Source: an uncultured Holophagaceae bacterium (GTDB lineage Bacteria > Acidobacteriota > Holophagae > Holophagales > Holophagaceae). Taken from it: a DNA stretch of 64,000 nucleotides. The stretch covers positions 389,078 through 453,077 of the forward strand of contig CAIZZF010000026.1 in the NCBI GenBank assembly GCA_903937385.1, written 5' to 3'. Positions within the stretch are counted from its first letter, which is position 1. Every line of letters starts with the position of its first letter. Shown one piece after another: positions 2,959 to 44,775 of the stretch. Below the pieces are notes generated by a model. It was not told the origin of the DNA. It ran no database searches and saw nothing but the letters and a program-made list of their open reading frames with translations. Position numbers and translations under genes: made by a program.

Positions 2959-3150
2959 CTAGCAGGCCTTGATGACCTTGCCGGCCTGGATGCAGGAGGT
3001 GCAGACCCGCAGGCGCTTGGGGGCGCCGCTCACCAGGGCGCGGACGCGCTGGATGTTCGGGTTCCACCGGCGCTTGGTGACGTTGTTGGAGTGGGAGACA
3101 TTGTTCCCGAACTGGGGCTTCTTGCCACAGATTTCGCACTGACGGGACAT
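2959..3150 (-). CDS. rpmB: 50S ribosomal protein L28
   Basis: [63 protein letters not shown]; zinc-ribbon (C+) form. Confidence 0.95.
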
Positions 3151-3230
3151 GGGAACCTCATGAACAAAATGGTCAAACGGCCAAGAGAACCAGTTTAGCC
3201 AAGGAAGGTCGAAAAGCAAGGGGAAAGGGC

Positions 3231-4118
3231 TTGCGTGGCGCCCCTTCCCCGACCCAGGATAACCTCGCCTCCCCTGGATTCCCCTTGGATCTCCGCGTCT
3301 GGGCCCTCGCCTTCACCGTGCTCGACTGGCCGGAACGCCAGAAGGCGGACCTCTGGGAGGCCCTGCAGGCCAGTGGGGAGCCGTCTCTGCCACCGGCCAT
3401 GGCGACGGCCCTGGCCCAGGTGGCCGCGAGCCTGCCCCGACGCCAGCGGGAGGCCGAGGACCGCGGCGCCCACCTCTGCCTGCCCGGGGACCCCGGCGTC
3501 GAGGCCCTGCTCGCGCCCCTGCCCTACCCCGTGGCCCTGTGGGTACGAGGCACCCTGCCGCCCCAGGGGCCCCGGGTGGCCATCGTCGGCAGCCGTCAGG
3601 CCAGCACCCGGGGCCGGGCCCGCACCCGCGCCTGGGCCAAGGCCCTCACCCAGGCCGGCGTGGCGGTGGTCTCGGGCCTGGCCCGGGGCATCGACGGCGC
3701 CGCCCACGCGGGCGCCCTGGAGGCCGGCGCGACCTGGGGCATCCTCGGCTCCGGCCTGGACCATCCCTATCCGCCCGAGCACCGGCCCCTGATGGACCAG
3801 ATCGTGGCGGCCGGGGGCGGGGTGATCACGCCCTTCCCCCCCGAGGCGCCGCCCCTCAAGTGGCACTTCCCCCGCCGGAACTGGCTGCTGGCGGCCTGGA
3901 CCGACGGGGTGCTGGTCACGGAGGCCCGTCTCCGGTCCGGTTCCCTGGTCACCGCCCGCCTGGCCCTGGACCTGGGCAAGGAGCTCTGGGTCTGCCCGGG
4001 CTCCCCCGAAGATCCTTCTGCAGAAGGCCCAAATGAGTTGCTAAGAGAAGGCGCAGCAAGAATTTGTCTACGACCCGATGACCTCCTGGAGGACCTGGGT
4101 TCAAGGATGGTCACTTGA
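3231..4118 (+). CDS. dprA: DNA-processing protein DprA
   Basis: [94 protein letters not shown] start. Confidence 0.9.
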
Positions 4119-4166
4119 CAAACCTCTGCCCTTCGGTCCCATCCTTAGCCCCCAGGGGAGTTCTCA

Positions 4167-6605
4167 GTGACCAAGCTCGTGATCGTGGAAAGCCCGTCCA
4201 AGGCCAAGACCATCACCAAGTACCTCGGCAAGGGGTACAAGGTCATGGCGTCCGTGGGCCATATCCGGGACCTGCCGCGCAAGCTGGGCGTCGATGTGGA
4301 GAACGGGTTCCAGGAGGAATACGAGATCAGCCCCACCAAAGAGAAGGTGGTGCGGGAGCTGCGAGCCGCTGCCAAGACCGCCGACGAGCTGATCCTCGCC
4401 ACTGACCCTGACCGCGAGGGGGAGGCCATCAGCTGGCACCTGCTGGAGGCCATCAAGCCGCCCAAGAGCCTGCCCGTGAGCCGCGTCCTGTTCAACGAGA
4501 TCACGCCCAATGGCATCGCGAAGGCCATGGCTGCCCCCACCACCATCAACAAGAAGCTGGTGGACGCCCAGCGGGCCCGGCGGGTGCTGGACCGGCTGGT
4601 GGGCTACAAGGTCAGCCAGGTGCTCTGGGAGAAGGTGCGCCGGGGCCTCAGCGCGGGCCGCGTGCAGAGCGTCGCCGTGCGCATCATCGTAGACCGCGAG
4701 CGGGAGATCCTCGCCTTCAACCCCGTCGAGTACTGGGTCCTCAAGGGGAAGTTCGGCGCCAAGCTGCCGCCTTCCTTCTGGATGAAGCTGGTGAAGGTGG
4801 GCGGACAGGCCTTGCAGCTCGGCAACAAGGAGACCAAGCGGCGCATCGCGGACGCCAAGCAGGCCAAGGACCTCAAGGCCAAGCTGGAGAAGGCGGACTA
4901 CAAGGTCACCAGCCTCGAGACCAAGGAGAAGAAGCGGAACCCCTCCGCGCCCTTCACCACGGCCAAGCTGCAGCAGGAGTCAGCCCAGAAGCTCAAGATG
5001 AGCGTCAGCCGCACCATGCAGAACGCGCAGCGGCTCTACGAGGGCGTGGACTTCGGCGAGGGGCTCGCGGGCCTCATCACCTACATGCGCACCGACTCGC
5101 CCCGCATGGCCCCCGAGGCTGTGGAGGCCGCCCGGGAGTTCATCGCCCAGAAGTACGGCAAGGAGTATCTGCCCGCCAAGGCCCGGGTTTACACCGGGAA
5201 GGCCGGCGCCCAGGACGCCCACGAGGCCATCCGGCCCACGGACATCACCCGCACGCCGGAGAGCCTGCGGGGCCACCTGGAGCCGGACCAGTTCCGCCTC
5301 TACGCCCTCATCTGGCGGCGCACCATGGCCTCCCAGATGGAGGCCGCGCGCTTCGACGAGACGGTGGTCCAGACCGAAGCCGACCTCGGCAAGGAGACGG
5401 CCCTGTTCGAGGCCAAGGGCGAGATCGAGCGCTTCCCCGGCTGGCTGGCGGTCTATCGCGCCGACAAGACCGAGGCAGACGCCGAAGCCATCGCCGACGC
5501 CACCAAGGTGGACGAGGAAGAGGATGCCGACGACATCCAGCTGCCGGCCCTGAAGACGGGCGAGGCGCTGAAGCTTGAGCAGCTCGACGCAGACCAGCAG
5601 CACACCAAGCCCCCGGCGCGGTTCAACGAGGCCACCTTGGTGAAAGAGCTGGAAGAGGACGGCATCGGCCGACCCAGCACCTACGCCAGCATCATCTCCA
5701 CCATCCAGGACCGGGACTACGTCAAGAAGCACGAGGGCCGCTTCAAGCCCACGGAGCTGGGCATGGTTGTCACGGACCTGCTGCTGCAGGGTTTCCAGGA
5801 GCTGCTGGATCCCAAATACACCTCGGGCATGGAGGGCAACCTCGACCGCATCGAGGAGGGCAAGCTCACCTTCAAGAAGGCCATGACGGATTTCTACGTG
5901 CCCTTCGAGCAGTCCCTGCAGGCCGCGGGCGCGGACATGCAGAACCTCAAGGCCGGCGTGGCCACGGACAAGGTCTGCCCCAAGTGCGGCGGCGCCATCC
6001 TCAAGCGCATCGGCAAGAACGGGCTCTTCTTCGGCTGCTCCAAGTACCCCGAGTGCAGCCACACCGAGGAAGTGGAAAAGATGGAGGAGCCGGAGGATGC
6101 GCCGGAGTGCCCCCTCTGCGGCACCACCCCCATGAACCTGCGCAAGGGCCAGTGGGGTCCCTTCTGGGCCTGCCCCACCTATCCCAAGTGCAAGGGCATC
6201 GTGAAGGCCGATCCCAAGGGCATCCCTGTCCCCGCGGACGAGCCCACCGGTGAGATCTGCCCCAACTGCGGCAAGGGCTTCGTCAAGCGCCACGGCCGCT
6301 ACGGCGAGTTCGTCTGCTGCGTGGACTACCCGGGCTGCAAGACCGTGAAGAAGGAGATCCTGCCGGTGCCCTGCCCCAAGTGCGGCGGCGGCCTGAGCCC
6401 GCGCAAGACCCGCTTCGGCAAGATCTTCTACGGCTGCACCAACTACCCCAAGTGCGACTACACCGCCTGGGACAAGCCCGTGCCGGTCACCTGCCCCGCG
6501 TGCAAGAACCCCACCATGGGCGAGAAGACCCGGAAGCCCCGCGGCAAGGAGCCCATCCAGGTCCTCATCTGCCCCAAGTGCCAGCACGAAGAGCCCATGG
6601 GGTGA
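4167..6605 (+). CDS. topA: DNA topoisomerase I with C-terminal zinc ribbons
   Basis: TKLVIVESPSKAKTITKYLGKGYKVMASVGHIRDLP; LITYMRTDSPRMAPEA; multiple CxxC...C...C zinc ribbons; GTG start. Confidence 0.97.
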   Translation: MTKLVIVESPSKAKTITKYLGKGYKVMASVGHIRDLPRKLGVDVENGFQEEYEISPTKEKVVRELRAAAKTADELILATDPDREGEAISWHLLEAIKPPKSLPVSRVLFNEITPNGIAKAMAAPTTINKKLVDAQRARRVLDRLVGYKVSQVLWEKVRRGLSAGRVQSVAVRIIVDREREILAFNPVEYWVLKGKFGAKLPPSFWMKLVKVGGQALQLGNKETKRRIADAKQAKDLKAKLEKADYKVTSLETKEKKRNPSAPFTTAKLQQESAQKLKMSVSRTMQNAQRLYEGVDFGEGLAGLITYMRTDSPRMAPEAVEAAREFIAQKYGKEYLPAKARVYTGKAGAQDAHEAIRPTDITRTPESLRGHLEPDQFRLYALIWRRTMASQMEAARFDETVVQTEADLGKETALFEAKGEIERFPGWLAVYRADKTEADAEAIADATKVDEEEDADDIQLPALKTGEALKLEQLDADQQHTKPPARFNEATLVKELEEDGIGRPSTYASIISTIQDRDYVKKHEGRFKPTELGMVVTDLLLQGFQELLDPKYTSGMEGNLDRIEEGKLTFKKAMTDFYVPFEQSLQAAGADMQNLKAGVATDKVCPKCGGAILKRIGKNGLFFGCSKYPECSHTEEVEKMEEPEDAPECPLCGTTPMNLRKGQWGPFWACPTYPKCKGIVKADPKGIPVPADEPTGEICPNCGKGFVKRHGRYGEFVCCVDYPGCKTVKKEILPVPCPKCGGGLSPRKTRFGKIFYGCTNYPKCDYTAWDKPVPVTCPACKNPTMGEKTRKPRGKEPIQVLICPKCQHEEPMG

Positions 6606-31442: not shown

Positions 31443-32285
31443 ATGTCAGCCCCCAAGACCCCCCTGCTGAACCGAATCCACAGCGCCCGCGGCCTCTCCC
31501 CCAGCCAGCGGCAGATCGCGGACTGCCTGATCGCCAACATGAACGAGGCCGCCCTCTGGGGCGTGGAGGACCTGGCCGCGAAGTCCCAGACCTGCGTGGC
31601 CACCGTGGTCCGCTTCGCCAAGAAGCTGGACTACAGCGGCTACCTGGAGATGCGGAAGGCCCTGGTCGGGGCCGCCAAGAAGCACTACGGGCGCGGTGAG
31701 CAGCTCCTGCAGGCGCCCATGCAGGCCTCGGCCACCCTCCTGGAGGTGGTCCGCCGGGATCTCCGCAACCTTGAGACCCTGGTGCAGGCCGTGGACGAGA
31801 GCCTGCTCCAGCGCGTGGTGAAGCAGGTGCGGGACAGTCGGATCCGGCTGATCATCGGGGACGGCGTGTCCGCCCTGATGGCCCGTCAGTTCGCCTACCT
31901 GCTGATCAATGCAGGCCTGCCGGTCATGGAGGGCAACCCCGCCGACTTCGCCACCCAGGTGGGCCTGCTGGACACCAAGGACCTGCTCGTGGCCATCAGC
32001 ATCACGCCCTACACCCAGGAGACCCTGGACGCCGCCGCCTATGCCCGGAAGCGGGGCATCCCCGTGCTGGCCTTCACGGACAGCCTGAACTCCCCCCTGG
32101 CCAAGTCCGCCACCCTGGCCCTGCCCATTCCCGGGGAGAACCTGCTCTTCTCCCACAGCGTCACGGCCTTCGGCGTCCTGGCCCATGCCATCGTCACCTC
32201 CATCGCCAGCCAGACCCCTCAGCAGACCCTCAGCAAGCTGCGCGAAGTCGAGCGGGTGGCCCGGCAGAAATTCGCCAAGGACTGA
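31443..32285 (+). CDS. MurR/RpiR family transcriptional regulator (HTH + SIS)
   Basis: LSPSQRQIADCLIANMNEAALWGVEDLAAKSQTCVATVVRFAKKLDYSGYLEMRKAL; SIS domain ISITPYTQETLDAAAYARKRGIPVLAFTDS. Confidence 0.88.
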   Translation: MSAPKTPLLNRIHSARGLSPSQRQIADCLIANMNEAALWGVEDLAAKSQTCVATVVRFAKKLDYSGYLEMRKALVGAAKKHYGRGEQLLQAPMQASATLLEVVRRDLRNLETLVQAVDESLLQRVVKQVRDSRIRLIIGDGVSALMARQFAYLLINAGLPVMEGNPADFATQVGLLDTKDLLVAISITPYTQETLDAAAYARKRGIPVLAFTDSLNSPLAKSATLALPIPGENLLFSHSVTAFGVLAHAIVTSIASQTPQQTLSKLREVERVARQKFAKD

Positions 32286-32355
32286 CGACTCGGGGCCAGG
32301 CAAAGCTCGCCCTGTCAGGCGGGGGAACGACGTCATGGGACGGATGAAAATAAAC

Positions 32356-32384
32356 TTGACTCGATAATCCCAAAAGCTTTACTT
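32356..32384 (+). promoter_or_regulatory. Sigma70-like promoter for TonB receptor
   Basis: TTGACT (32356-32361), 17-nt spacer, TTACTT (32379-32384). Confidence 0.4.
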
Positions 32385-32418
32385 TTTTGTCACCAACCCT
32401 TTTCTCCCTGGAGGAGCG

Positions 32419-35235
32419 ATGACTCGAAATGCGAGCAGTCCCTGGCTCAGTGCACTCGTTCTAGCCCTCGTGGCAGCCCCGGCGGCACTGGTCGCTCAGA
32501 CCAGCACCACCGCCGCGCTGGCGGGCGTCGTTCGCGATGCCGCGGGCAACCCCGTGGCCGGCGCCAAGGTCCGCATCAGCTCCGACGCCATGATCGGCGG
32601 GGAGAGGGTCACGGTCAGCGCCGCCAACGGCGCCTACCGTTTCTCGGCGCTGGCACCCGGCCGCTACAAGATCGTTGTCACCGCCCCCGGCCAGCAGACG
32701 CTTTCCATGACCGAGAACCTTGCCCTGGGCCAGACCACTTCCGGCAACTGGAAGTTCCCGGCCGTTGCCGGCGCGACCGTGGAGATCGTGGCCGCCTCGA
32801 CCAATGCCGAATCCAGCTCGGTCACCATCACCCAGAACTACAGCACCGAGGCCCTGGCCACCATCCCCGTCGAGCGCTCCATCGCCGGCATCATGGACCT
32901 CACCCCGGGCGTCAATGGAAACCGGGCCTGGGGCGGCTACTCCGGTGAGAACGCCTACATGATGGATGGCGTGAACATCAGCGATCCCTCGGGCGGCACC
33001 GTCTGGATCTACCCGAACATCGACTGGTTCTCTGAGATCCAGGTCGCGGGTCTGGGCGCCAATGCCGAGTTCGGCGGCTACATGGGCGGCTTCGTCAATG
33101 GGCTCGTTAAGCGCGGCGGCAACACCGTGGAAGGCAGCCTCACGGCCTACTACGCGGATTCCAAGTGGCAGGCCAAGATCAACGCGAACCACCCCGACCT
33201 GCCGAGCTCGGAAAAGAACATCCTCCCCTCCAAGAACTGGGATCTGGCCATAAGCGTCGGCGGCCCCATCATCAAGGACAAGCTCTGGTATTTCGTCTCC
33301 GCCGAGCGCATCGAGCAGGACGACACCCCGCCAGGCGCCGAGCTGCCCCAGCGCAACCAGAAGGTCATGGCCTTGGCCAAGATCACCTGGGCCCCCAGTG
33401 TCTCCTCCACCTTGGAGTTCCTGGCTGAGCACGACTATGTGGGTCGGGACCGGCGCTACATCGACAAGTGGACCATGCCCGTCGCCACGCAGAAGGAGAT
33501 GGCTCCCAACAAGTCCGTGAGCGTCACCTGGACCCAGACCATCGACCAGGACAAGGTCCTCACCTTGAAAGCCTTCGGCTACTCGGGACGCTATGACATG
33601 CCGGGCTACGGCGGCAACGCCCTGTCCCTGGACACTGCGGACCTCTACCAGTACGACCCCAAGAAGCCGGCGCGGGAGTACTTCAACAACTCCACCTACG
33701 AGGACTTCAACTACCGCTCCCGGGCCACGATCCAGGCCACTTTCGACTGGTTCAAGACCGGCCTGTTCAGCGCCAACGACAGCCACGCCTTCCGCTTCGG
33801 CATCGAGCGGGAGCAGGCTTCCGACGAAGAGCTGGAACGCTTCCCCGGCAACCTGAACCTCAACGCGACCTACGACAACTTCGATGGGCCGCTCTATGGT
33901 GACTACATCATCGAGGGTGGTGGTTGGAATGTCCGCCAGCGCGTGGACCGCCTGGCGGCCTTCGCCCAGGACACCTGGCATGTCAACAGCCGGCTCACGC
34001 TCACACCCGGCGTCCGGTTCGAGCAGTTCAAGGCCCGCTTCTACGGCGGCGAGAACCTCTGGAACAAGAACACCTATGCCCCCCGCTTCGGCATCAGCTA
34101 CGCCCTCACCGAGAGCCAGTCGACCATGCTGAAAGCCCACTGGGGCAAGTACTACGCCGGCTACTCCACCTACTTCATCGACCGCGCCATCCAGAGCGCG
34201 ATCCCCGTCAAGAACTACTACAGCTGGGGCGATTACCCCATCATCCCGAATGTCCTGGACCCCTCCACCTGGCCCGATCACACCCCAGGCACCGCGGACA
34301 ACTACGCCTACCGGCGCGTCAACGACATCACGGCCGTGGATCCCAATGCCCGGCAGCCCTATGTTGTGGAGACCACCCTCTCCCTGGACCACCAGTTCAA
34401 TGCCACCTGGGGCGGCAGCGTCTCCTACATCTCCCGCGACTGGAAGGACAGCCTGGCCCGGGTGGACACGGCCGCAGATCCAAGGGGTGCCTGGTCCGAC
34501 TACGTGGACCCTCTGCACAACCGGCCCATCAGCCTCTACGAGCCAGGAATCTACAGTGATGCCGGGGTTTCTTTCCGCGTCCCGCATAACAGCTACGTGA
34601 CCACCAACCCGAGCGATGCCAAGCGCAAGTACGAGGCGGTTTCCGTTTCCCTCGACCGGAAGCTGGCCAACAACTGGAGCCTGAACGCCAGCTACACCCA
34701 CGCCACGCTCAAGGGCAACATCCAGCGCGCGGACAGCTACGACAAGGTCTACTACAACAAGAATCTGATGATCAATTCCTACGGGAATCTGCCCGGGGTC
34801 AATGATCACGAGATCAAGGCCCGGGGCACCTACGAGTTCCCCTGGCACATGCGCCTCTCTGGGACCTTCACCTACCTGAGTGGCACCCATTGGACGCCCA
34901 CCTACCGGACACCCAACGGCTGGGGGAATAGCGACTGGGGCAATTTCAACGGCCAGCGCTACTTTGTGAACACGGAAGCCCTGGGCAGCGAGACCTACCC
35001 CAGCCGAACCCTCCTGGACCTCCGCGTGACCCAGCAGATCGCCCTCAACAAGAGCTCCCACCTGGAGATCTTCGGAGAAGTGCTCAACGTACTGAACCGT
35101 CAGGCCCCCTTGTCCTACAACACCAGGGTGAACGCGAGCAACTCTGACACCTCGGGCATGTATGTCGACTACAAGTATCCGACTGCTCTGGATGCCGGTC
35201 GCCGCATCCAGCTGGGCCTTCGCCTGACGTTCTAG
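32419..35235 (+). CDS. TonB-dependent receptor with N-terminal carboxypeptidase-regulatory-like domain
   Basis: Signal peptide; LAGVVRDAAGNPVAGAKVRIS; plug-like region; C-terminal GRRIQLGLRLTF beta-signal. Confidence 0.9.
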   Translation: MTRNASSPWLSALVLALVAAPAALVAQTSTTAALAGVVRDAAGNPVAGAKVRISSDAMIGGERVTVSAANGAYRFSALAPGRYKIVVTAPGQQTLSMTENLALGQTTSGNWKFPAVAGATVEIVAASTNAESSSVTITQNYSTEALATIPVERSIAGIMDLTPGVNGNRAWGGYSGENAYMMDGVNISDPSGGTVWIYPNIDWFSEIQVAGLGANAEFGGYMGGFVNGLVKRGGNTVEGSLTAYYADSKWQAKINANHPDLPSSEKNILPSKNWDLAISVGGPIIKDKLWYFVSAERIEQDDTPPGAELPQRNQKVMALAKITWAPSVSSTLEFLAEHDYVGRDRRYIDKWTMPVATQKEMAPNKSVSVTWTQTIDQDKVLTLKAFGYSGRYDMPGYGGNALSLDTADLYQYDPKKPAREYFNNSTYEDFNYRSRATIQATFDWFKTGLFSANDSHAFRFGIEREQASDEELERFPGNLNLNATYDNFDGPLYGDYIIEGGGWNVRQRVDRLAAFAQDTWHVNSRLTLTPGVRFEQFKARFYGGENLWNKNTYAPRFGISYALTESQSTMLKAHWGKYYAGYSTYFIDRAIQSAIPVKNYYSWGDYPIIPNVLDPSTWPDHTPGTADNYAYRRVNDITAVDPNARQPYVVETTLSLDHQFNATWGGSVSYISRDWKDSLARVDTAADPRGAWSDYVDPLHNRPISLYEPGIYSDAGVSFRVPHNSYVTTNPSDAKRKYEAVSVSLDRKLANNWSLNASYTHATLKGNIQRADSYDKVYYNKNLMINSYGNLPGVNDHEIKARGTYEFPWHMRLSGTFTYLSGTHWTPTYRTPNGWGNSDWGNFNGQRYFVNTEALGSETYPSRTLLDLRVTQQIALNKSSHLEIFGEVLNVLNRQAPLSYNTRVNASNSDTSGMYVDYKYPTALDAGRRIQLGLRLTF

Positions 35236-35257
35236 GCTCCGTCGCCTGACAAACGGC

Positions 35258-35283
35258 AGTGCCGGGCCTTCGGGCCCGGTACT
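35258..35283 (+). terminator. UUCG-capped hairpin terminator after TonB receptor
   Basis: AGTGCCGGGCC-TTCG-GGCCCGGTACT (11-bp stem, one G-T), short T-rich run after. Confidence 0.55.
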
Positions 35284-35309
35284 TGTCTTCCGCCTTCTCA
35301 AGGAGTCCC

Positions 35310-36170
35310 ATGCCCCGGTTGGTTGCCCTCCTGTGCTGCGCCTGCCTCCTGGGGGCAAGCACACCCAAAGGCACCCTGGTCATCGTGGGCGGCGGGGGCA
35401 TGCCCCAGCCGATCCTCGATGCGTTCCTCCTCGCCTCCGGCGGGAAGGGCGGCGCCGTGGGCATCATCCCCACCTCCACCAGCGACCCCGATGGCGCGCT
35501 CAAGGAGTGGAAGGAGGACCTCGAGAAGGCGGGCCTCACCATGGTCTCCCTGGACGTCCGCAGCCGGGAGCAGGCCTCCGACCCCGAGCTGTTGGCCCGC
35601 GCCCGAACCTGCACGGGCTTCTGGTTCTCAGGAGGCGACCAGAACCGCGTGGGTGACAAGATCGTCGGCACCCCGCTGCAGAAGGTTGTCCGCGACCGTT
35701 ACGAGGCCGGCGCCTGCATCGGCGGCACCAGCGCCGGAGCCGCCATCATGTCCAAGGTCATGCTCACGGGCGATGACCGCCACGGCAAGGAGGCCCTCTC
35801 CGAGTTCGGACCCGGCGCCTACCAGACCCGCGAAGGCATGGGCTTCCTGCCGGAAGGCGTCATCGTGGACCAGCACTTCCTCCGGCGCAGTCGCGAGAAC
35901 CGCCTCTTCAGCGTGGTCATGGGGCGACCCGACCTGCTGGGCCTCGGCATCGACGAGGCCACGGCCCTGGTGGTCAAGGATGGCCAGGCCAAGGTCCTCG
36001 GGAACCGCTCGGTCATGGTCTTCGACCCTTCAGGCATGACCGTCCAGGGCGAGTCCTTCCGCGACCTCCGCATCCACGTGCTGCGCCCCGGTCAGTCCAT
36101 CGATCTGGCCACCCGCAAGGTGAGTCAGCCACCAGAGGCGATAAACCTCAACCGCAAGGAGAAGAATTGA
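35310..36170 (+). CDS. Cyanophycinase-like S51 peptidase with signal peptide
   Basis: GTLVIVGGGGMPQPILDAFLLASGGKGGAVGIIPTST; GFWFSGGDQNRV; ACIGGTSAGAAIMSKVMLTGD; GFLPEGVIVDQHFLRRSRENRL. Confidence 0.9.
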   Translation: MPRLVALLCCACLLGASTPKGTLVIVGGGGMPQPILDAFLLASGGKGGAVGIIPTSTSDPDGALKEWKEDLEKAGLTMVSLDVRSREQASDPELLARARTCTGFWFSGGDQNRVGDKIVGTPLQKVVRDRYEAGACIGGTSAGAAIMSKVMLTGDDRHGKEALSEFGPGAYQTREGMGFLPEGVIVDQHFLRRSRENRLFSVVMGRPDLLGLGIDEATALVVKDGQAKVLGNRSVMVFDPSGMTVQGESFRDLRIHVLRPGQSIDLATRKVSQPPEAINLNRKEKN

Positions 36171-37651
36171 CCACAAAGGGGCGGATGATCCTCGTCTTCC
36201 TGCTTGCGGTAGTCAGTCTCACTGCGGCCGCGCCGGCACCCTTCCCAGCCGATCACCGCACCATGACCAAGACTGTCTCCTACGCGGAGATGACCGCCTT
36301 CCTGACAGCGGTCGCTCGACCGGGCTTGATCACGGTCACCGAGGAGGGCCGCACGCACCAGGGCCGCCAGGTGCTGCTGGTGCGCCTGAATCGGGGTGGC
36401 ACCAAGGCCCGCTTCCGGGTGCTGTACTACGCCCAGCAGCACGGCAACGAGGTGGCGGGCAAGGACGCGCTCCTGACCCTGATCCGGGACATCGCCCAGC
36501 ATCCGGAGCTGCTGCCGGAGGACGTGGACCTCTACCTCATGCCCATGCTGAATCCTGATGGCGCGGAGGCCCACCGCCGCCTGAACGGCGCGGGCGAGGA
36601 CCTGAACCGGGACCACCTCCTGCTGGCCCAGCCCGAGACCCAGGCCCTGCACCGCGTGGCCCGGCGCATCCGGCCCCACCTGGCGGTGGACAGCCACGAG
36701 TTCGGGCGGGATGGGAAGGACTACACCGACCGGGGCTGGGAGGCCTGGCCCCTCATCACCATGGACGCCGCCAACCATCCCCTCATTCCTGACTATCTCA
36801 AGACCGCGGGGCTGGAGGCCGTAGCCGCCGCCGCGCCCCTGCAGAAGAAGGCCGGCCACACCTACGCTCGCTACAGCGTGGGCGGTCCGCCGCCGGACGA
36901 GGAAATTCGGCCCTCCACACCTGAAGTCGATGACGGGCGCAACGGCATGGGCACCCTGGGCGCCCTGTCCTTCATCATCGAGGCCGGCGTCCGGCACCAG
37001 GCCAAGGAGCCCCAGGCGGACCTGGGCGCGCGGGTGGACGGCTACCGCATCCTCTACCGCCACCTGCTCGGCGACCGCGTCTGGCGCGACCGGGTCTACA
37101 AGCTTGCCGAGCGGGCCCGCCGCGAGCCCCTGCCGCCCTTCATCGCCACCAACGTCTTCTGGGCCAATCTAGGCGGCAAGGTCACCTCGGTGAAGGTGCT
37201 GGAGACCGCCACGGGCCGGGTACTCGAGGTACCCACCGCCAACGCCATGACCGACCTGGTGGTGAAGGGCAGCGTCCCCACCCCCCGGGCCTATGCCATC
37301 GAGCCCGCCCTCGCCGCGCGCTTCCTGCCCGTCCTGGAAGCCCAGGGCCTGCGCTTCGAGGCCCTCAGCGCCCCCCGGCGGGCGCGGGTCGAGCGGGTCC
37401 GCCTGCTCCGCCTCGAAGAGCCCTACGACGAGCTCTACCAGCGCTACAAGGACCGGCAGATCGTCGAGCGCCAGGCCCCGGCCGACCTGGACCTGCCCGT
37501 GGGTACCCTCGTCGTGCCTCTTGACCAGGACCTGGCCCGCCGGGCCATCCAGGTGCTGGAACCCTGCCTGCTCTATGGCCTCTACGGCTACCCTGGCTTC
37601 CGTGAGTCGGCGAAGCCCGGCGCCTTCCTGCCTGTGTCCCGTCTCTTCTGA
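36167..37651 (+). CDS. Secreted M14 family zinc carboxypeptidase
   Basis: QQHGNEVAGKDALL (HxxE), PMLNPDGAEAHRRLNGAGEDLNRDH, AVDSHEFGRDG; N-terminal signal peptide. Confidence 0.86.
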   Translation: MTTKGRMILVFLLAVVSLTAAAPAPFPADHRTMTKTVSYAEMTAFLTAVARPGLITVTEEGRTHQGRQVLLVRLNRGGTKARFRVLYYAQQHGNEVAGKDALLTLIRDIAQHPELLPEDVDLYLMPMLNPDGAEAHRRLNGAGEDLNRDHLLLAQPETQALHRVARRIRPHLAVDSHEFGRDGKDYTDRGWEAWPLITMDAANHPLIPDYLKTAGLEAVAAAAPLQKKAGHTYARYSVGGPPPDEEIRPSTPEVDDGRNGMGTLGALSFIIEAGVRHQAKEPQADLGARVDGYRILYRHLLGDRVWRDRVYKLAERARREPLPPFIATNVFWANLGGKVTSVKVLETATGRVLEVPTANAMTDLVVKGSVPTPRAYAIEPALAARFLPVLEAQGLRFEALSAPRRARVERVRLLRLEEPYDELYQRYKDRQIVERQAPADLDLPVGTLVVPLDQDLARRAIQVLEPCLLYGLYGYPGFRESAKPGAFLPVSRLF

Positions 37652-37684
37652 ACCCGCTCCGGATCGCATCCGGCTGGAGTTCCC

Positions 37685-38848
37685 ATGCTGCTGCTCATCA
37701 AAAACGTGGAAGTCTACGCACCCGACCCCGGAGGCACCTGCGACCTGCTGATCGGCGGCGGGAAGATCCTGCGCATGGAAGCGGACATCCGCATCCCCCG
37801 CAAGTACTGCGAGGTCATCGACGGCCGGAACCACAAGGCCGTGCCGGGCTTCATCGACGGTCACGTACACATCATGGGCGGCGGCGGCGAGGGCGGCTTT
37901 GCCACCCGCACGCCGGGCCTGCCCCTCACGGATGCCATCCTGGGCGGCGTGACCACCGTGGTGGGCTGCCTGGGCACCGACGGCTACACGCGGCACATGG
38001 CCGGCCTCCTCGCCAAGGCCAAGGGCCTCGAGGAAGAAGGCCTCAGCACCTTCATCTACTCCGGCTCCTACGGGCTGCCCCTGCGCACCCTCATGCCCAG
38101 CCTCGAGGAGGATCTCCTCTTCATCGATAAGGTGATCGGAGCTGGGGAAGTGGCGCTCTCGGACCACCGCTCCAGCCAGCCCACTTTCGAGGCCTTCGCC
38201 CAGCTGGTGGCCATGGCCCGGCGCGGCGGGATGCTCTCGGGCAAGGCCGGCATCGTCAACGTCCACCTGGGCGACGGCGCCCGGGGCCTGGACTTCCTGC
38301 GGCGCATCGCCGCCGAGACGGAGCTGCCCCTCACCCAGATGTGGCCCACGCATATCAACCGCAACCCGCACCTCTTCGAGGAGGGTATCGCCCACGCGAA
38401 GGCTGGCGGCTTCGTGGACTTCACCACCTCGACCCTGGCCTCCTACCTCGAGGATGGCGAGATCCCCTGCGCCAAGGCCCTGCGCCGCATGCTGGAAGCG
38501 GGCGTGGATCCTGGCCAGATCACCTTCACCTCCGATGGCCAGGGCAGCCTGCCGGACTGGGACCGGAACGGCCGCCTGCAGGACATCTCCGTAGGCCGGG
38601 TCACCTCGCTGTTCCCGGCGGTGCGCGAGGCGGTGCAGGCCGAGGGTCTCGCCCTTGAGACCGCCCTCCGGGTGATCACCGCCAACCCTGCCCGCATCTT
38701 GAAGCTGCGCAGCAAGGGCCAGCTGGCTCCCGGCATGGACGCGGACGTGGTACTGCTCAGCAAGGACCTGGAGGTCCGCAGCGTCGTGGCCAAGGGCCAG
38801 CTGCTCATGAAGGCCGGGCGTCCCCTGACCAAGGGGAGGTTCGAGTGA
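37685..38848 (+). CDS. iadA: Isoaspartyl dipeptidase (beta-aspartyl peptidase)
   Basis: AVPGFIDGHVHIMGGGGEGGFATRTPGLPLTDAILGGVTTVVGCLGTDG; SDHRSSQPTFE; VNVHLGDGARGL; TSDGQGSLP. Confidence 0.92.
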   Translation: MLLLIKNVEVYAPDPGGTCDLLIGGGKILRMEADIRIPRKYCEVIDGRNHKAVPGFIDGHVHIMGGGGEGGFATRTPGLPLTDAILGGVTTVVGCLGTDGYTRHMAGLLAKAKGLEEEGLSTFIYSGSYGLPLRTLMPSLEEDLLFIDKVIGAGEVALSDHRSSQPTFEAFAQLVAMARRGGMLSGKAGIVNVHLGDGARGLDFLRRIAAETELPLTQMWPTHINRNPHLFEEGIAHAKAGGFVDFTTSTLASYLEDGEIPCAKALRRMLEAGVDPGQITFTSDGQGSLPDWDRNGRLQDISVGRVTSLFPAVREAVQAEGLALETALRVITANPARILKLRSKGQLAPGMDADVVLLSKDLEVRSVVAKGQLLMKAGRPLTKGRFE

Positions 38849-40281
38849 GTGCACCGGAAACCACGACGCCGGCGGCGCCCCCCGCCCGGCAGATGCCCCA
38901 CACCCTGGTGATCGTCGGGGCCCTGATCGTCCTGGTGCTGGTGCTGTCCTGGCTCATCCCCTCGGGCGAGTACCAGCGCACCGCCGTGGAGACCAGCGAG
39001 GGCATCCGGAAGGTCACCATCCCCGGCACCTTCCACCTGGTGCCCAAGGTCCTCCTGGGCCTGCAGGCCCTGCTGCTGGCCCCCATCAAGGGCTTCCTGG
39101 ACGGGTCCCTGCTCATCTGCTTCCTGCTGGTGATCGGCGGAACCTTCGCCGTGTTCCAGGAGACCGGCGCCGTGGAGTCCGGCATCTGTGGGCTGACGGA
39201 CGTCCTGGCCCGGCGGCCCGCCCTGAAAGGTCTGGTGATCCCGGTCCTGATGACGGTGTTCTCCCTGGCTGGCGGCATCTTCGGCATGGCCGAGGAGATC
39301 ATCCCCTTCGTCATCATCTTCATCCCCCTGGCCCGGCGCCTGGGCTACGACTCCATCGTGGGGATCTGCATCCCGTTCCTGGGAGCGGCGGCCGGCTTCG
39401 CGGCGGCCTTCTTCAACCCCTTCACCGTCGGCATCGCCCAGAGCATCGCCGGCCTGCCCCTCTACTCCGGCCTGGCCTACCGGCTGGTCACCTGGGTGAT
39501 CGGCACCACCGTGGTGATCACCTACGTGATGCTCTATGCCCACCGTGTGAAGCGGGACCCGACCCTCAGCCCGGTCTATGACCTGGACCTCGAGCGGGGC
39601 AGCCTCTCCGAGACTTCCGCTGGCCCCGCCTGGGATGCCCGCAAAGTCGCCGCGCTGGTCCTCTTCGCCGGCTGCATGCTGCTGTTGGTGGTGGGCGTGC
39701 TGCGCTGGAAGTGGTACATGGAGGAGATCGCCGTGCTGTTCTTCGGCATGGGCATCGCCCTCGGCGTGGTGGGCGGCCTCAGCCCCAGCCGCATCGCCGC
39801 GGTCTTCGTGGTCGGGGCCAAGGACATGGTGAGCGTGGTCTTCATCGTGGCCTGCGCCCGGGCATTGCTGATCATCGCCCAGGACGCCCGCATCATGGAT
39901 ACGATGCTCTTCGCCGCCTCCAAGGCCATGGCCATGCTGCCCCGGGTGGTCGTGGCCCAGGTGATGTTCCTCATCCAGTCGGGGATCAACTTCCTCATCC
40001 ACTCGGGCACGGCCCAGGCCGCCCTGACCATGCCAATCATGGCGCCGCTCTCCGACCTGGTCGGCGTCACGCGCCAGACGGCGGTCTACGCGTTTCAGCT
40101 CTGCGAGTTCGTGAATCCCATCCTGCCCACCTCCGCCGTCACCATGGGTGTGCTCGGGGCCGCGAAGATCCCCTGGGACAAGTGGGCCCGCTGGTTCCTG
40201 CCCCTCCTGGTGATCCTGGTGCTGCTCAGCTTCCTGCTGCTCATCCCGCCCGTGCTGTTCTTCCACTGGGGCCCCGCGTGA
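38845..40281 (+). CDS. YfcC-family membrane transporter
   Basis: SWLIPSGEYQR; GGIFGMAEEIIPFVIIFIPLARRLGYDSIVGICIPFLGAAAGFAAAFFNPFTVGIAQ. Confidence 0.85.
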   Translation: MSAPETTTPAAPPARQMPHTLVIVGALIVLVLVLSWLIPSGEYQRTAVETSEGIRKVTIPGTFHLVPKVLLGLQALLLAPIKGFLDGSLLICFLLVIGGTFAVFQETGAVESGICGLTDVLARRPALKGLVIPVLMTVFSLAGGIFGMAEEIIPFVIIFIPLARRLGYDSIVGICIPFLGAAAGFAAAFFNPFTVGIAQSIAGLPLYSGLAYRLVTWVIGTTVVITYVMLYAHRVKRDPTLSPVYDLDLERGSLSETSAGPAWDARKVAALVLFAGCMLLLVVGVLRWKWYMEEIAVLFFGMGIALGVVGGLSPSRIAAVFVVGAKDMVSVVFIVACARALLIIAQDARIMDTMLFAASKAMAMLPRVVVAQVMFLIQSGINFLIHSGTAQAALTMPIMAPLSDLVGVTRQTAVYAFQLCEFVNPILPTSAVTMGVLGAAKIPWDKWARWFLPLLVILVLLSFLLLIPPVLFFHWGPA

Positions 40282-41840
40282 GCCTGCGTTCCCTCGCCCT
40301 CCTGGCGCTGCTGGCCAGCGGGGCGCTGGCCCAGGGCACTGCGCCTGATGCCACTGCGGACTTCATCCGGGTCACCGGGACCGAGCCCCTGCCCGCGCCC
40401 CTGCCTGCCCTCGTGGACGGCCTGGAAGCCTCACGGCTCAGAGCGCACATCGCCTTCCTCAGCGACCCGAAGCGCGAGGGCCGGGGCCTGGGTAGCCGCG
40501 GACTCGAGGCCACGGTGCGCTACCTCCAAGAGCAGGTGAAAGCCGCGGGCCTGCCGCCCCTGGGACCAGGCTATTTCCAGACCGTGCCGCTGCGAGAGGT
40601 GCGGCCCGGCCAGGGCACCGTCCGGCTAACGCTTGGATCTGCCAGCCTCACCTTCCGCGCGGGCCGGGACGCCGTCCTCCCCACGGTGGCCCCGAGCAGA
40701 CTCGAAGGTCCCTGCGTGTTCGTCGGATTCGGCATCCAGGAGCCCGGCCTGGGCCACGATGACTTCCGGGGCCTGGACGTCCGCGGCAAGGTGGTGATCT
40801 TCCGCGATGGCATCCCCTCCGGCGCCGCCTGGCAGAAGCCCGAGCTGCTCGAAAAATACCTCTCCAGCCGCCCCGCAGATCGCTACGATGCCCGCCTGGC
40901 CCTGCTCGAAAAGCTCGGCGCCCGGGCGGCCATCGCCCTGGAAGAGGGCCTGGACCAGCGCATCAGGGTGGGCAAGGAACCGGCCCTGCCCTACTTTCTG
41001 GCAGCACCCGGCGTACCCAGCTCTGGCGAGCCGCCGCTGGCGCGGCTGGCACTCACGCCGGGGCTGCGCACCCTGCTGCAAGGGCCCCGGGAAGGCACGG
41101 CCAACCTCGTCATCCGAGGCCGGGTGCGGGCGCTCCAGGGCCAGAACCTGCTCGCCCGCCTGGAAGGCTCGGATCCTGCCCTGCGCCGGGAGGCCATCCT
41201 GCTCGGCGCCCACATGGACCACCTCGGCATGCCCGCGGGTGTCCTGCATCCCGGCGCCGATGACAACGCCTCGGGCGTGGCGGCGCTGCTGGAGATCCTG
41301 CGATCCCTGGCCGCCAGTCCCATCCATCCCCGCCGCACGGTGCTCTTCGCCTTCTGGACCGGCGAGGAAGAGGGCAAGTTCGGTTCCGGCCACTACACCC
41401 GCCAGCCCCGCTGGCCCCTGGCCACCACGAGTGCCTACCTGAACCTCGACATGATCGGCCATCCCTGGCCCCAAGAGGCACTCCGGACCCTGGTGGCGGA
41501 AGCGGGCCTGAAGCAGCCGGAGGCCTTCCTCGACGGACTTGCGCCCGCCCACTTCGCGGAGCCGGGCCTCAGCACCAGTCACCGCGAGCTCGGCCCCGTC
41601 CTCGCGCTGGCCGGTCGTGGCACCGGCATGTCCCTGCACCTGGACTGGACCGACGGCAAGAACGGCGGCAGCGACTACCGGGACTTCGCCCGGCGCGAGG
41701 TGCCCTTCGTGCGCTTCTTTGGCGACTACTTCCCGGGCTACCACAAGCCCGGGGACACCCTCGACCAGCTGGACCCCGAACAGGTGCGCCGCATGGCCCG
41801 CCTCGCCCTCGCCACCGCCTGGCTGCTGGCCGATCGGTAA
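40278..41840 (+). CDS. Secreted M28 family metallopeptidase
   Basis: Signal peptide SLRSLALLALLASGALAQG; LGAHMDHLG, GADDNASGVAALLE, FWTGEEEGKFGSGHY; GTG at 40278. Confidence 0.88.
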   Translation: MSLRSLALLALLASGALAQGTAPDATADFIRVTGTEPLPAPLPALVDGLEASRLRAHIAFLSDPKREGRGLGSRGLEATVRYLQEQVKAAGLPPLGPGYFQTVPLREVRPGQGTVRLTLGSASLTFRAGRDAVLPTVAPSRLEGPCVFVGFGIQEPGLGHDDFRGLDVRGKVVIFRDGIPSGAAWQKPELLEKYLSSRPADRYDARLALLEKLGARAAIALEEGLDQRIRVGKEPALPYFLAAPGVPSSGEPPLARLALTPGLRTLLQGPREGTANLVIRGRVRALQGQNLLARLEGSDPALRREAILLGAHMDHLGMPAGVLHPGADDNASGVAALLEILRSLAASPIHPRRTVLFAFWTGEEEGKFGSGHYTRQPRWPLATTSAYLNLDMIGHPWPQEALRTLVAEAGLKQPEAFLDGLAPAHFAEPGLSTSHRELGPVLALAGRGTGMSLHLDWTDGKNGGSDYRDFARREVPFVRFFGDYFPGYHKPGDTLDQLDPEQVRRMARLALATAWLLADR

Positions 41841-42725: not shown

Positions 42726-44054
42726 TCAGGGAAGCTGGACCTCGCCGTACCAACCCTTGAGGCTGATCTTGGTGCCGTAGGGGGCGGACAGCCTCTGCAG
42801 GAGGGCGATGATCTCGCCGCCCCGCTTGGTGCTGGCCAGGCGGGGCACGCCGTAGAGGGGGCCTTCGTCGTCGATGGTCACAGGCAACAGCTGGATCCGC
42901 TTCAGCTTTCCCTGGTTCATCGTCATGCGGACCATCACGGTCTCCAGCACTTCGCGGGACTCGCGGCGGTCGAACACCGAGACGTTGGCGGGGCGGGGCA
43001 TCTCGATGTCGCGCTGGTGGATGACATCCGCGGGGATCCGCTCCGGGGTGCGGTACTGGTAGATGAAGTCGCCGAGGCTGTAGAAGATGGGCCGCCCCTG
43101 GTAGAGCTCGATGCCGCGCAGGACGTGGGGGCCGGTGCCGATCACCATGTCCGCCCCGGCCTCGATGGCCCGGCGGAACATGATCTGGTCGTTGGGCGGG
43201 GTGGTGTCCTGGATGCCGTACGCGCGGTGGTGGGTCACGTCGTGGTTGTGCAGGGTGACCAGCAGCAGGTCCGCATGGCGCCGAGCCAGGACGATGTCAT
43301 CCTCCATCGCCTTCACGTCGGACTCCAGGGGGCCTTCCACCTTCTCCACCTTGCCGTCCCGCACCGCGAGGATGACGGCGGGGTCGATGGTCGCCAGGGA
43401 CGGTGCGGAGGGGTCCTTGCTGCGGTACTTGGCGGTCCAGTAGCGCATGTAAGAGAGCAGGGAGACCCGGGTCTTGAAACCGGCCAGCTCCAGGGTGCCC
43501 GGGGCTCGCGCCTCGGCCAGGGTGGCGCCGGCGCCGGCATAGGTGATGTTCGAATGATCCAGGGCCTTCAGGCACTCCTTGAGCCCCTCGGGGCCGAAGT
43601 CCAGGGCATGGTTGTTGGCCAGGCTCACCAGGTTGATGCCCGTCCGCGCCAGCTCCCAGCGGAAGTCCCGGGGCGCCCGGAAGTTGTAGAAGGGCCGCTG
43701 GAGGTCCGGCCGGTCGTTCAGCGAGAACTCCATGTTGCCATAGGCGATGTCGGCCTCCTGCATGAGGCGCAACAGGCCCGCTCGCTCGGGGGCTTCCAGG
43801 TGGCTGATTTTCTCGTTGAAGATCATGTCGCCCACCGCCGTGATGACGAGGTCGCCCGACTCCTCCTTGAGCAGCTCGCCGAGGCGGCCCGCCCAGTCGA
43901 TGCGCTCGGGCTTCTCCGGGGGCTGGACAAGGTGCCGGTAGACCGAGCGGGGATCGTCCTTGGCGGACTCCGGCTTGGCCTGGGCGAGGGCGGGCAGTCC
44001 GCACAGCAGCGCTGCCATGGCCAGGACTCGATGGACTCGGGGCGTCCCGGGCAT
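42726..44054 (-). CDS. CapA family protein (PGA_cap metallophosphatase-like)
   Basis: DLVITAVGDMIFNEKI; LVSLANNHALDFGPEGLKE; LLVTLHNHDVTH; GADMVIGTGPHVLRGIELYQGRPIFYSLGDFIYQ; RBS AGGAGG before ATG 44054. Confidence 0.88.
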   Translation of the reverse strand: MPGTPRVHRVLAMAALLCGLPALAQAKPESAKDDPRSVYRHLVQPPEKPERIDWAGRLGELLKEESGDLVITAVGDMIFNEKISHLEAPERAGLLRLMQEADIAYGNMEFSLNDRPDLQRPFYNFRAPRDFRWELARTGINLVSLANNHALDFGPEGLKECLKALDHSNITYAGAGATLAEARAPGTLELAGFKTRVSLLSYMRYWTAKYRSKDPSAPSLATIDPAVILAVRDGKVEKVEGPLESDVKAMEDDIVLARRHADLLLVTLHNHDVTHHRAYGIQDTTPPNDQIMFRRAIEAGADMVIGTGPHVLRGIELYQGRPIFYSLGDFIYQYRTPERIPADVIHQRDIEMPRPANVSVFDRRESREVLETVMVRMTMNQGKLKRIQLLPVTIDDEGPLYGVPRLASTKRGGEIIALLQRLSAPYGTKISLKGWYGEVQLP

Positions 44055-44166
44055 GGTGACCTCCTGCAAGAAAGGTGGTGCTGCGCAATTTTGTTTCATC
44101 CAGCGCCATCCTGCAAAGTATTTCAATCAGCTCACCGGGGTGGCCCCGGGGCCTTATCCTGGAGCC

Positions 44167-44775
44167 ATGACCACCGATCCGGACTACTGGAACCGCATCT
44201 ACGAGGACGAGGCCCGACCCGTCTGGGACATGGCCCGGGCCACGCCGCTGGTGTCCGAGGTCCTGGAGCTGGCCCTGCCCCTGGGCCTCCGCCCGGGCTG
44301 CGAGTTGGTGGTGCCCGGCTGCGGGTACGGCCATGACGCCGTCGAGCTGGAGGCGCGGGGCTTCTCGGTCACGGGCCTGGACTTCGCCCCCCTCGCCATC
44401 CAGGGCGCCATGCACCGCTACGGGGACCGCGTCATCTGGTCCCAGGCGGACTGGTTCACCACCCACCTGGGGCCCTGGGACGGCATCTTCGACCACACCT
44501 GCTTCGTGGCCATGGACCCGGCCCTGCGCTCGGCCTACGTGGACGCCTGCGCGGAGCATCTCCGCCCCGGGGGGTTCTGGCTGGTGGCGGCGTTCCATGA
44601 TGTCCAGGGCCGCCCGGCGCCGCCCCACGAGATCCCCATGCTGGAGATGCGCCACCTGGCGGAGGCCCGGTTCGAGGTGCTGCACCTGGCCGAGGCCCAG
44701 CAGAGCCACCCCCGCCGCGCGGGCCGCGAGTACCTGCTGGTGGCCCGCCGCCGCGAAGGCTCTGTCCAGCCTTAA
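44167..44775 (+). CDS. SAM-dependent methyltransferase, thiopurine methyltransferase-like
   Basis: YWNRIYEDEARPVWDMA; ELVVPGCGYGHDAVELEARGFSVTGLDFAPLAI. Confidence 0.85.
   Translation: MTTDPDYWNRIYEDEARPVWDMARATPLVSEVLELALPLGLRPGCELVVPGCGYGHDAVELEARGFSVTGLDFAPLAIQGAMHRYGDRVIWSQADWFTTHLGPWDGIFDHTCFVAMDPALRSAYVDACAEHLRPGGFWLVAAFHDVQGRPAPPHEIPMLEMRHLAEARFEVLHLAEAQQSHPRRAGREYLLVARRREGSVQP

Follow-up and report, generated by a model that had tools for sequence, protein, structure and literature searches.

We analyzed a 64,000-nucleotide stretch of DNA from an uncultured Holophagaceae bacterium (the window; assembly GCA_903937385.1, contig CAIZZF010000026.1, positions 389,078 to 453,077), whose source genome of 3.68 Mb is 97.8% complete. 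A cassette of seven same-strand genes within it (31443-41840) is probably a cyanophycin utilization locus, with which a bacterium that does not make cyanophycin itself would scavenge the polymer. Cyanophycin is the nitrogen-storage polymer of cyanobacteria and a large store of nitrogen and carbon, and its capture by other bacteria is poorly known. Judged from its genes, the cassette has the features of a scavenging locus: a gene of the cyanophycinase family (peptidase family S51), a clustered iadA gene for an isoaspartyl dipeptidase, clustered transporters—a TonB-dependent receptor and a DcuC/YfcC-like carrier—and a host genome with no cphA1, the gene for cyanophycin synthetase. A first-pass annotation of the same DNA had proposed a cyanophycin or beta-aspartyl-peptide locus with its own TonB receptor. 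That proposal is supported by curated equivalog models, by the absence of cphA1, by inheritance of the cassette as a unit, and by gene neighborhoods that recur in other lineages.

A Cyanophycinase-Family Peptidase and an Isoaspartyl Dipeptidase in One Cassette

The S51 protein (P0003; 35310-36170, + strand) scores 170 bits on the cyanophycinase equivalog TIGR02069 (cut-off 126.6) and only 30.5 bits on the model of the dipeptidase PepE. Its best match in the PDB is the cyanophycinase 3en0 (E = 5.6e-31), and its best solved relatives are cyanophycinases. Ser141, His189, and Glu216 are invariant in the family alignment, even against homologs of 35-39% identity, as are Gln111, Asp187, Gln188, Arg193, Arg195, and Arg198. 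The protein keeps the cyanophycinase motif set—the catalytic Ser in GTSAG, the His, the Glu, and the Gln/Asp/Arg substrate residues—at positions that we take to be those of CphB, from the alignment with 3en0 and general knowledge of the CphB structure. The Ser motif, annotated earlier as GTSAGA, reads GGTSAGAA in full. ATG 35310 is the best start because it is where the orthologs begin, each with a signal peptide. Such peptides are conserved on the S51, M14, and M28 enzymes and the TonB receptor and absent from IadA, which agrees with the initial description of S51 as a secreted, cyanophycinase-like enzyme and of M14 and M28 as secreted.

The iadA gene lies two genes downstream of the S51 gene (P0005; 37685-38848, + strand), and its product, of the amidohydrolase family, scores 503 bits on TIGR01975 (cut-off 331), confirming the identity first given to it. 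The closest solved structures are isoaspartyl dipeptidases. The protein has the zinc and substrate residues of LmIadA and EcIadA (HxH, a bridging Glu equivalent to LmIadA E159, and two further His), together with equivalents of E73, T102, and R230. It is predicted to be cytoplasmic.

Five other genes, all on the + strand, complete the cassette in the order originally read. An RpiR/MurR-family regulator (P0001; 31443-32285; Pfam HTH_6 47.9 bits, SIS 63 bits) is followed by the TonB-dependent outer-membrane receptor (P0002; 32419-35235), which has CarboxypepD_reg and OMP_b-brl_4 barrel domains. Between S51 and IadA lies a secreted M14 metallocarboxypeptidase (P0004; 36167-37651, from a TTG start or from ATG 36185; Peptidase_M14 58.4 bits). 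The DcuC-family inner-membrane transporter (P0006; 38845-40281; PF03606, 313.8 bits) and a secreted M28 aminopeptidase-type metallopeptidase (P0007; 40278-41840; PF04389, 139 bits) close the series. The seven genes are spaced by 133, 74, -4, 33, -4, and -4 nt; the "several" 4-nt overlaps noted before number three, at S51/M14 (36167), IadA/YfcC (38845), and YfcC/M28 (40278).

Inheritance as a Unit at One Conserved Site

Is the cassette a real unit? Of 37 genomes of the genus, 19 have the S51, M14, IadA, and orthologous receptor genes together, and 18 lack all four. All complete copies share the order RpiR-TonB-S51-M14-IadA-YfcC-M28, with the RpiR gene leading and the M28 gene last; some copies are cut by contig ends, and many of the genomes are draft metagenome-assembled genomes (MAGs). 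The orthologous receptor gene lies 5' of S51 in all 19 cassette-bearing genomes and is the most variable member within the genus (38-96% identical), while S51 and IadA range over 59-99%.

OYE and AlkZ genes stand upstream of the cassette throughout the genus, and a TPMT-like gene lies beyond it (44029-44775 in the window). We read this site in 12 cassette-less genomes. The site is empty in 10 of these, with AlkZ directly adjoining the TPMT-like gene; in one of the 12, 1.3 kb of other sequence separates the two. The remaining one, genome G017 (locus L193, G017:C86:14500-27000, 3100-4681), retains AlkZ, RpiR, residues 278-477 only of YfcC, and the TPMT-like gene. This is a deletion scar, and at least one absence of the cassette is therefore a loss. 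The cassette is a real unit, gained or lost together. Receptors of this type are common, with about a dozen matches per genome, and one might have come to lie among unrelated metabolic genes by chance. The fixed order in 19 genus genomes, the loss as a unit, the empty sites, the deletion scar, and the recurrence outside the genus refute such chance clustering, and we give it virtually no weight.

A freely moving island within the genus was also rejected, as the cassette occupies one conserved site. Genome G016 has two full cassettes with flanks, on contigs C44 and C56, both of which carry AlkZ. With a MAG contamination of 4%, this could be strain mixing, and we do not claim a true duplication. 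Other Holophagaceae genera have the order TonB-S51-M14-IadA, mostly followed by YfcC. Three loci (L042, L043, and L066) encode an extra secreted protein of ~400 amino acids between IadA and YfcC; the L066 copy is without a Pfam match. The protein starts ...QGAEQC-T after its signal peptide, which suggests an Ntn-type hydrolase.

Convergent to the cassette lies a gene for a PGA_cap (CapA-type) protein (42726-44126, - strand; PF09587, 170.7 bits). Every cassette locus read as far as this position carries the gene, and all of the empty sites lack it; the gene falls inside the present/absent block and is therefore a possible accessory gene. Might the S51 enzyme have been repurposed for another branched or unusual polyamide, such as a cyanophycin-like polymer, poly-gamma-glutamate, or an amide-linked natural product? 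S51 enzymes of other specificities exist, the PGA_cap family—so constantly present in the block—is named for poly-gamma-glutamate capsule synthesis, and the SIS loop of the RpiR regulator is unusual. However, the PGA_cap gene is convergent and outside the operon, and the cassette genes include no recognizable poly-glutamate synthetase or hydrolase. Moreover, the IadA family acts on beta-aspartyl, not gamma-glutamyl, dipeptides, and S51 has the cyanophycinase motif set. We regard a different polyamide as quite improbable.

Storage versus Scavenging across Phyla

Does the S51 gene accompany cyanophycin synthesis or cyanophycin uptake? The host genome has no cphA1, the best score being 42 bits against a cut-off of 850. 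Another genome of the same genus (G004) has a cphA1 of 1098 bits; this gene lies in a storage operon that carries a different S51, 34% identical. G004 also has the scavenging cassette, on a contig other than that of the storage operon. In two Holophagaceae genomes (G371 and G378) the operon reads IadA-S51-cphA, and S51 has no receptor gene as its direct neighbor. Holophagaceae storage operons that combine cphA1, a second cphA-like gene, and a different S51 were seen at L059 (G004:C1:14000-28000), L149, and L150.

We then compared 69 S51 loci from outside Holophagaceae. A cphA gene lies near S51 in 11 of them, and TonB, RpiR, YfcC, M14, M28, or IadA genes lie near S51 in 23; none of the 69 combines cphA with receptor, RpiR, YfcC, M14, M28, or IadA neighbors. 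A hydrophobic N-terminus, as in a signal peptide, marks the S51 proteins encoded next to receptor, transporter, or M14 genes and is missing from those encoded beside cphA.

The individual pairings of the cassette are widespread. Another family of the class has TonB-S51 pairs (G038, G046, and G050; the receptor gene is 5' of S51 in loci L052, L054, and L055), as do other Acidobacteriota. YfcC stands directly 3' of S51 in several loci of Ignavibacteria, Bacteroidota, and Elusimicrobia, four of which (L080, L084, L086, and L089) have RpiR and a TonB receptor further out. A Calditrichia locus (L092) reads S51-RpiR-YfcC with a receptor beyond, and two Bacteroidales loci (L119 and L147), one of them in a complete genome, read S51-YfcC-M14. 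The first-pass annotation had proposed comparing neighborhoods of S51, IadA, and the TonB receptor; its gene order recurs in the genus, and TonB-S51, S51-YfcC, RpiR-TonB-S51-YfcC, and S51-M14 arrangements recur elsewhere. An M20-type peptidase gene directly 5' of S51 was also seen (L080 8785-9900, L147 8767-9888, L093, and L119; the call was Pfam-checked for L080 and L147 only) and is a candidate for another dipeptidase in these Ignavibacteria and Bacteroidales loci. In L147 (14007-15107, Pfam-checked) and L119 (13839-14945), an enolase-superfamily (MR_MLE) gene lies 3' of M14.

Several points weigh against a cyanophycin locus. The nearest solved cyanophycinase is only a distant match to S51, and both the S51 and the IadA family are promiscuous or diverse. 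Phosphosugars are the usual ligands of RpiR regulators, and the PGA_cap gene within the present/absent block has no obvious role in cyanophycin use. The M14 and M28 enzymes would also fit general peptide use. The carrier's original YfcC label holds as far as DcuC-family membership but not as the curated equivalog: it scores 351.7 bits on NF008611, under the cut-off of 500, and is therefore called YfcC-like only. The presence of S51 in 49 of the 58 IadA-bearing genomes among 396 Acidobacteriota favors the cyanophycin reading, but the Fisher P values for such co-occurrence ignore shared ancestry. Finally, IadA proteins encoded beside cyanophycin genes are by assay promiscuous rather than specific for beta-Asp-Arg (PMC10206079).

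A broader possibility is general scavenging of beta-aspartyl and protein-derived peptides: the receptor would take up peptides, M14 and M28 would trim them, S51 would act on Asp/isoAsp peptides, and IadA would cleave isoAsp dipeptides from aged protein, with cyanophycin at most one substrate. The published promiscuity of IadA fits this, as do an M14 fold that matches ordinary carboxypeptidases, the generic aminopeptidase family of M28, and the further secreted hydrolase-like gene of some cassettes. On the other hand, S51 exceeds the cyanophycinase cut-off and scores poorly on PepE, and its alignment shows no variation at the Arg/Asp/Gln residues expected to bind cyanophycin. Its partners in other phyla are the receptor, RpiR, and YfcC, with M14 and M28 only sometimes. 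General peptide scavenging is thus unlikely in our judgment, and cyanophycin utilization remains the preferred reading.

A Secreted M14 Subfamily That Tracks S51

The HxxE, LNR, and DxHE motifs and E272 of the M14 protein are all invariant; in the numbering of the M14 alignment (A3), so are the zinc ligands H86/E89/H171, the Asn-Arg carboxylate clamp N141-R142, and the catalytic Glu E266. An AlphaFold model built from nine close sequences had a predicted local distance difference test (pLDDT) score of 49, which rose to 93 with distant relatives added (29 sequences); the fold matches of the latter model in the PDB are M14 carboxypeptidases. The known enzyme CphZ, a cyanophycin dipeptide hydrolase annotated as M14/aspartoacylase-like (cited in PMC10206079), is similar in that a metallo-hydrolase of this group is linked to cyanophycin genes. 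In contrast, P0004 is a secreted protein of the carboxypeptidase branch with a C-terminal extension. We rejected its identification as CphZ: in profile and fold searches of the PDB it matches M14 carboxypeptidases best, no listed match is named CphZ, and the Pfam AstE_AspA score is only 25.8 bits.

How closely does this subfamily follow S51? In the 396-genome sample, 117 genomes have S51; among the 28 that encode a close M14 ortholog, 27 do, again without correction for phylogeny. Outside Holophagaceae the figure is 9 of 10, and in 4 of these 10 genomes M14 and S51 lie on one contig within about 10 kb. IadA is absent from 9 of the 10. The idea that M14 merely substitutes for IadA is weakened, however, by the occurrence of an Asparaginase_2/IaaA-type protein in 7 of these 9 genomes. 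We tentatively raise the possibility—doubtful as yet—that M14 is an unrecognized dedicated cyanophycin enzyme, removing side-chain Arg or cleaving beta-Asp-Arg outside the inner membrane. It would then belong to a cross-phylum uptake system with RpiR, TonB receptor, S51, and YfcC, and would supply a hydrolase to some S51-bearing Acidobacteriota and Bacteroidota without IadA.

Candidate Control Region and RpiR Regulator

A block 5' of the receptor gene (32343-32394, + strand), reading GATGAAAAnAAACTTGACTC ... AAGCnTTACTTTTTnGTCA, is conserved in 15 orthologous intergenic regions, the remainder of which is not conserved. Within the block, an imperfect A-run/T-run dyad flanks a -35-like TTGACT (32356-32361) and a weak -10-like TACTTT (32380-32385). 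A generic promoter scan did not call the block on the + strand. Its sequence and conservation make it a candidate for a promoter and for the operator of RpiR.

Regulators of the RpiR/MurR group that bind phosphosugars have the SIS loop S-x-S-G-x-T. The cassette RpiR family departs from this pattern, reading S-I-x-P-Y-[ST]-x-E-T without the usual Gly, and the effector may therefore not be a phosphosugar. RpiR genes adjoining S51 in other phyla encode the loop P-[YF]-S. Any ligand sensing by the regulator is putative.

A strong hairpin between the receptor and S51 genes (35255-35288, + strand) recurs at the same spot in nearly all genus orthologs (L032-L050 and L065; weakest in L051), with differing stem sequences. 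Its z score is -3.2 at the cassette (35236-35312) and -1.9 to -5.1 in orthologs. The hairpin lacks a T-tract, and mRNA processing or differential expression is therefore more likely than termination. No Rfam family was found in the cassette region.

Relation to Known Systems

Is the cassette a new category of locus? It is not, because a cyanophycin utilization locus (PMC10206079) and a receptor gene beside a cyanophycinase gene (PMC3400609) have already been described. The first is that of Bacteroidetes strain L21-Spi-D4, with cyanophycinase, iadA, and transporter genes (Ben Hania et al. 2017, as described in PMC10206079). The two loci are alike in clustering these genes and in the scavenging of external cyanophycin, which is proposed for the present one; unlike that locus as described there, the Holophagaceae cassette has RpiR, an Oar-like TonB receptor, M14, and M28 in fixed order. 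S51/iadA clustering is typical of genomes without cphA1 (PMC10206079). In Citromicrobium sp. JLT1363, a TonB receptor gene likewise lies close to a cyanophycinase gene, with predicted cyanophycin uptake, but this is a single genome, and IadA, M14, YfcC, and RpiR are not reported in the relevant passage of PMC3400609. Candidatus Sulfomarinibacter, of the same phylum, has secreted cyanophycinases with a Sec signal, no cphA, and IadA in one MAG, but no receptor- or transporter-bearing cassette in the account drawn from PMC8528874.

The cassette S51 resembles intracellular CphB and extracellular CphE in family, shares the catalytic and binding motifs of CphB, and is secreted as is CphE. Unlike them, it is distant from solved CphB and lies in a putative uptake operon, not next to cphA1. 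The polyamide analog of a polysaccharide utilization locus suggested in the first-pass annotation is likewise not a new idea, because the term cyanophycin utilization locus is already in the literature (PMC10206079). What is new is the fixed seven-gene Holophagaceae architecture, its loss as a unit, the cross-phylum association of RpiR, TonB receptor, and YfcC with S51, and the secreted M14 subfamily that tracks S51.

A Proposed Route for Cyanophycin

How would the cassette work? The TonB receptor would carry cyanophycin or soluble fragments across the outer membrane, and the secreted S51 enzyme, periplasmic or surface-held, would cleave the poly-Asp backbone into beta-Asp-Arg dipeptides. The M14 carboxypeptidase and M28 aminopeptidase would shorten alpha-linked peptides or the ends of the polymer; M14 may also strip arginine from side chains. 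The YfcC-like carrier would move beta-Asp-Arg or the amino acids released from it or other peptides across the inner membrane, the import of the dipeptide by this protein being a guess, and cytoplasmic IadA would split beta-Asp-Arg into Asp and Arg. RpiR, responding to an intracellular product, would bind the conserved block and so control the receptor promoter. We infer the substrate, the direction of transport, the roles of M14 and M28, and the ligand and operator of RpiR.

If this reading is right, the cassette would give Acidobacteriota, with related loci in other phyla, a defined way to take up a polyamide through a TonB receptor, as a counterpart of polysaccharide utilization loci. Its patchiness within a single genus would point to a niche trait. 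In Firmicutes and Bacteroidota, the isoaspartyl dipeptidases are said to be still undiscovered (PMC10206079), and the M14 subfamily offers a concrete candidate there.

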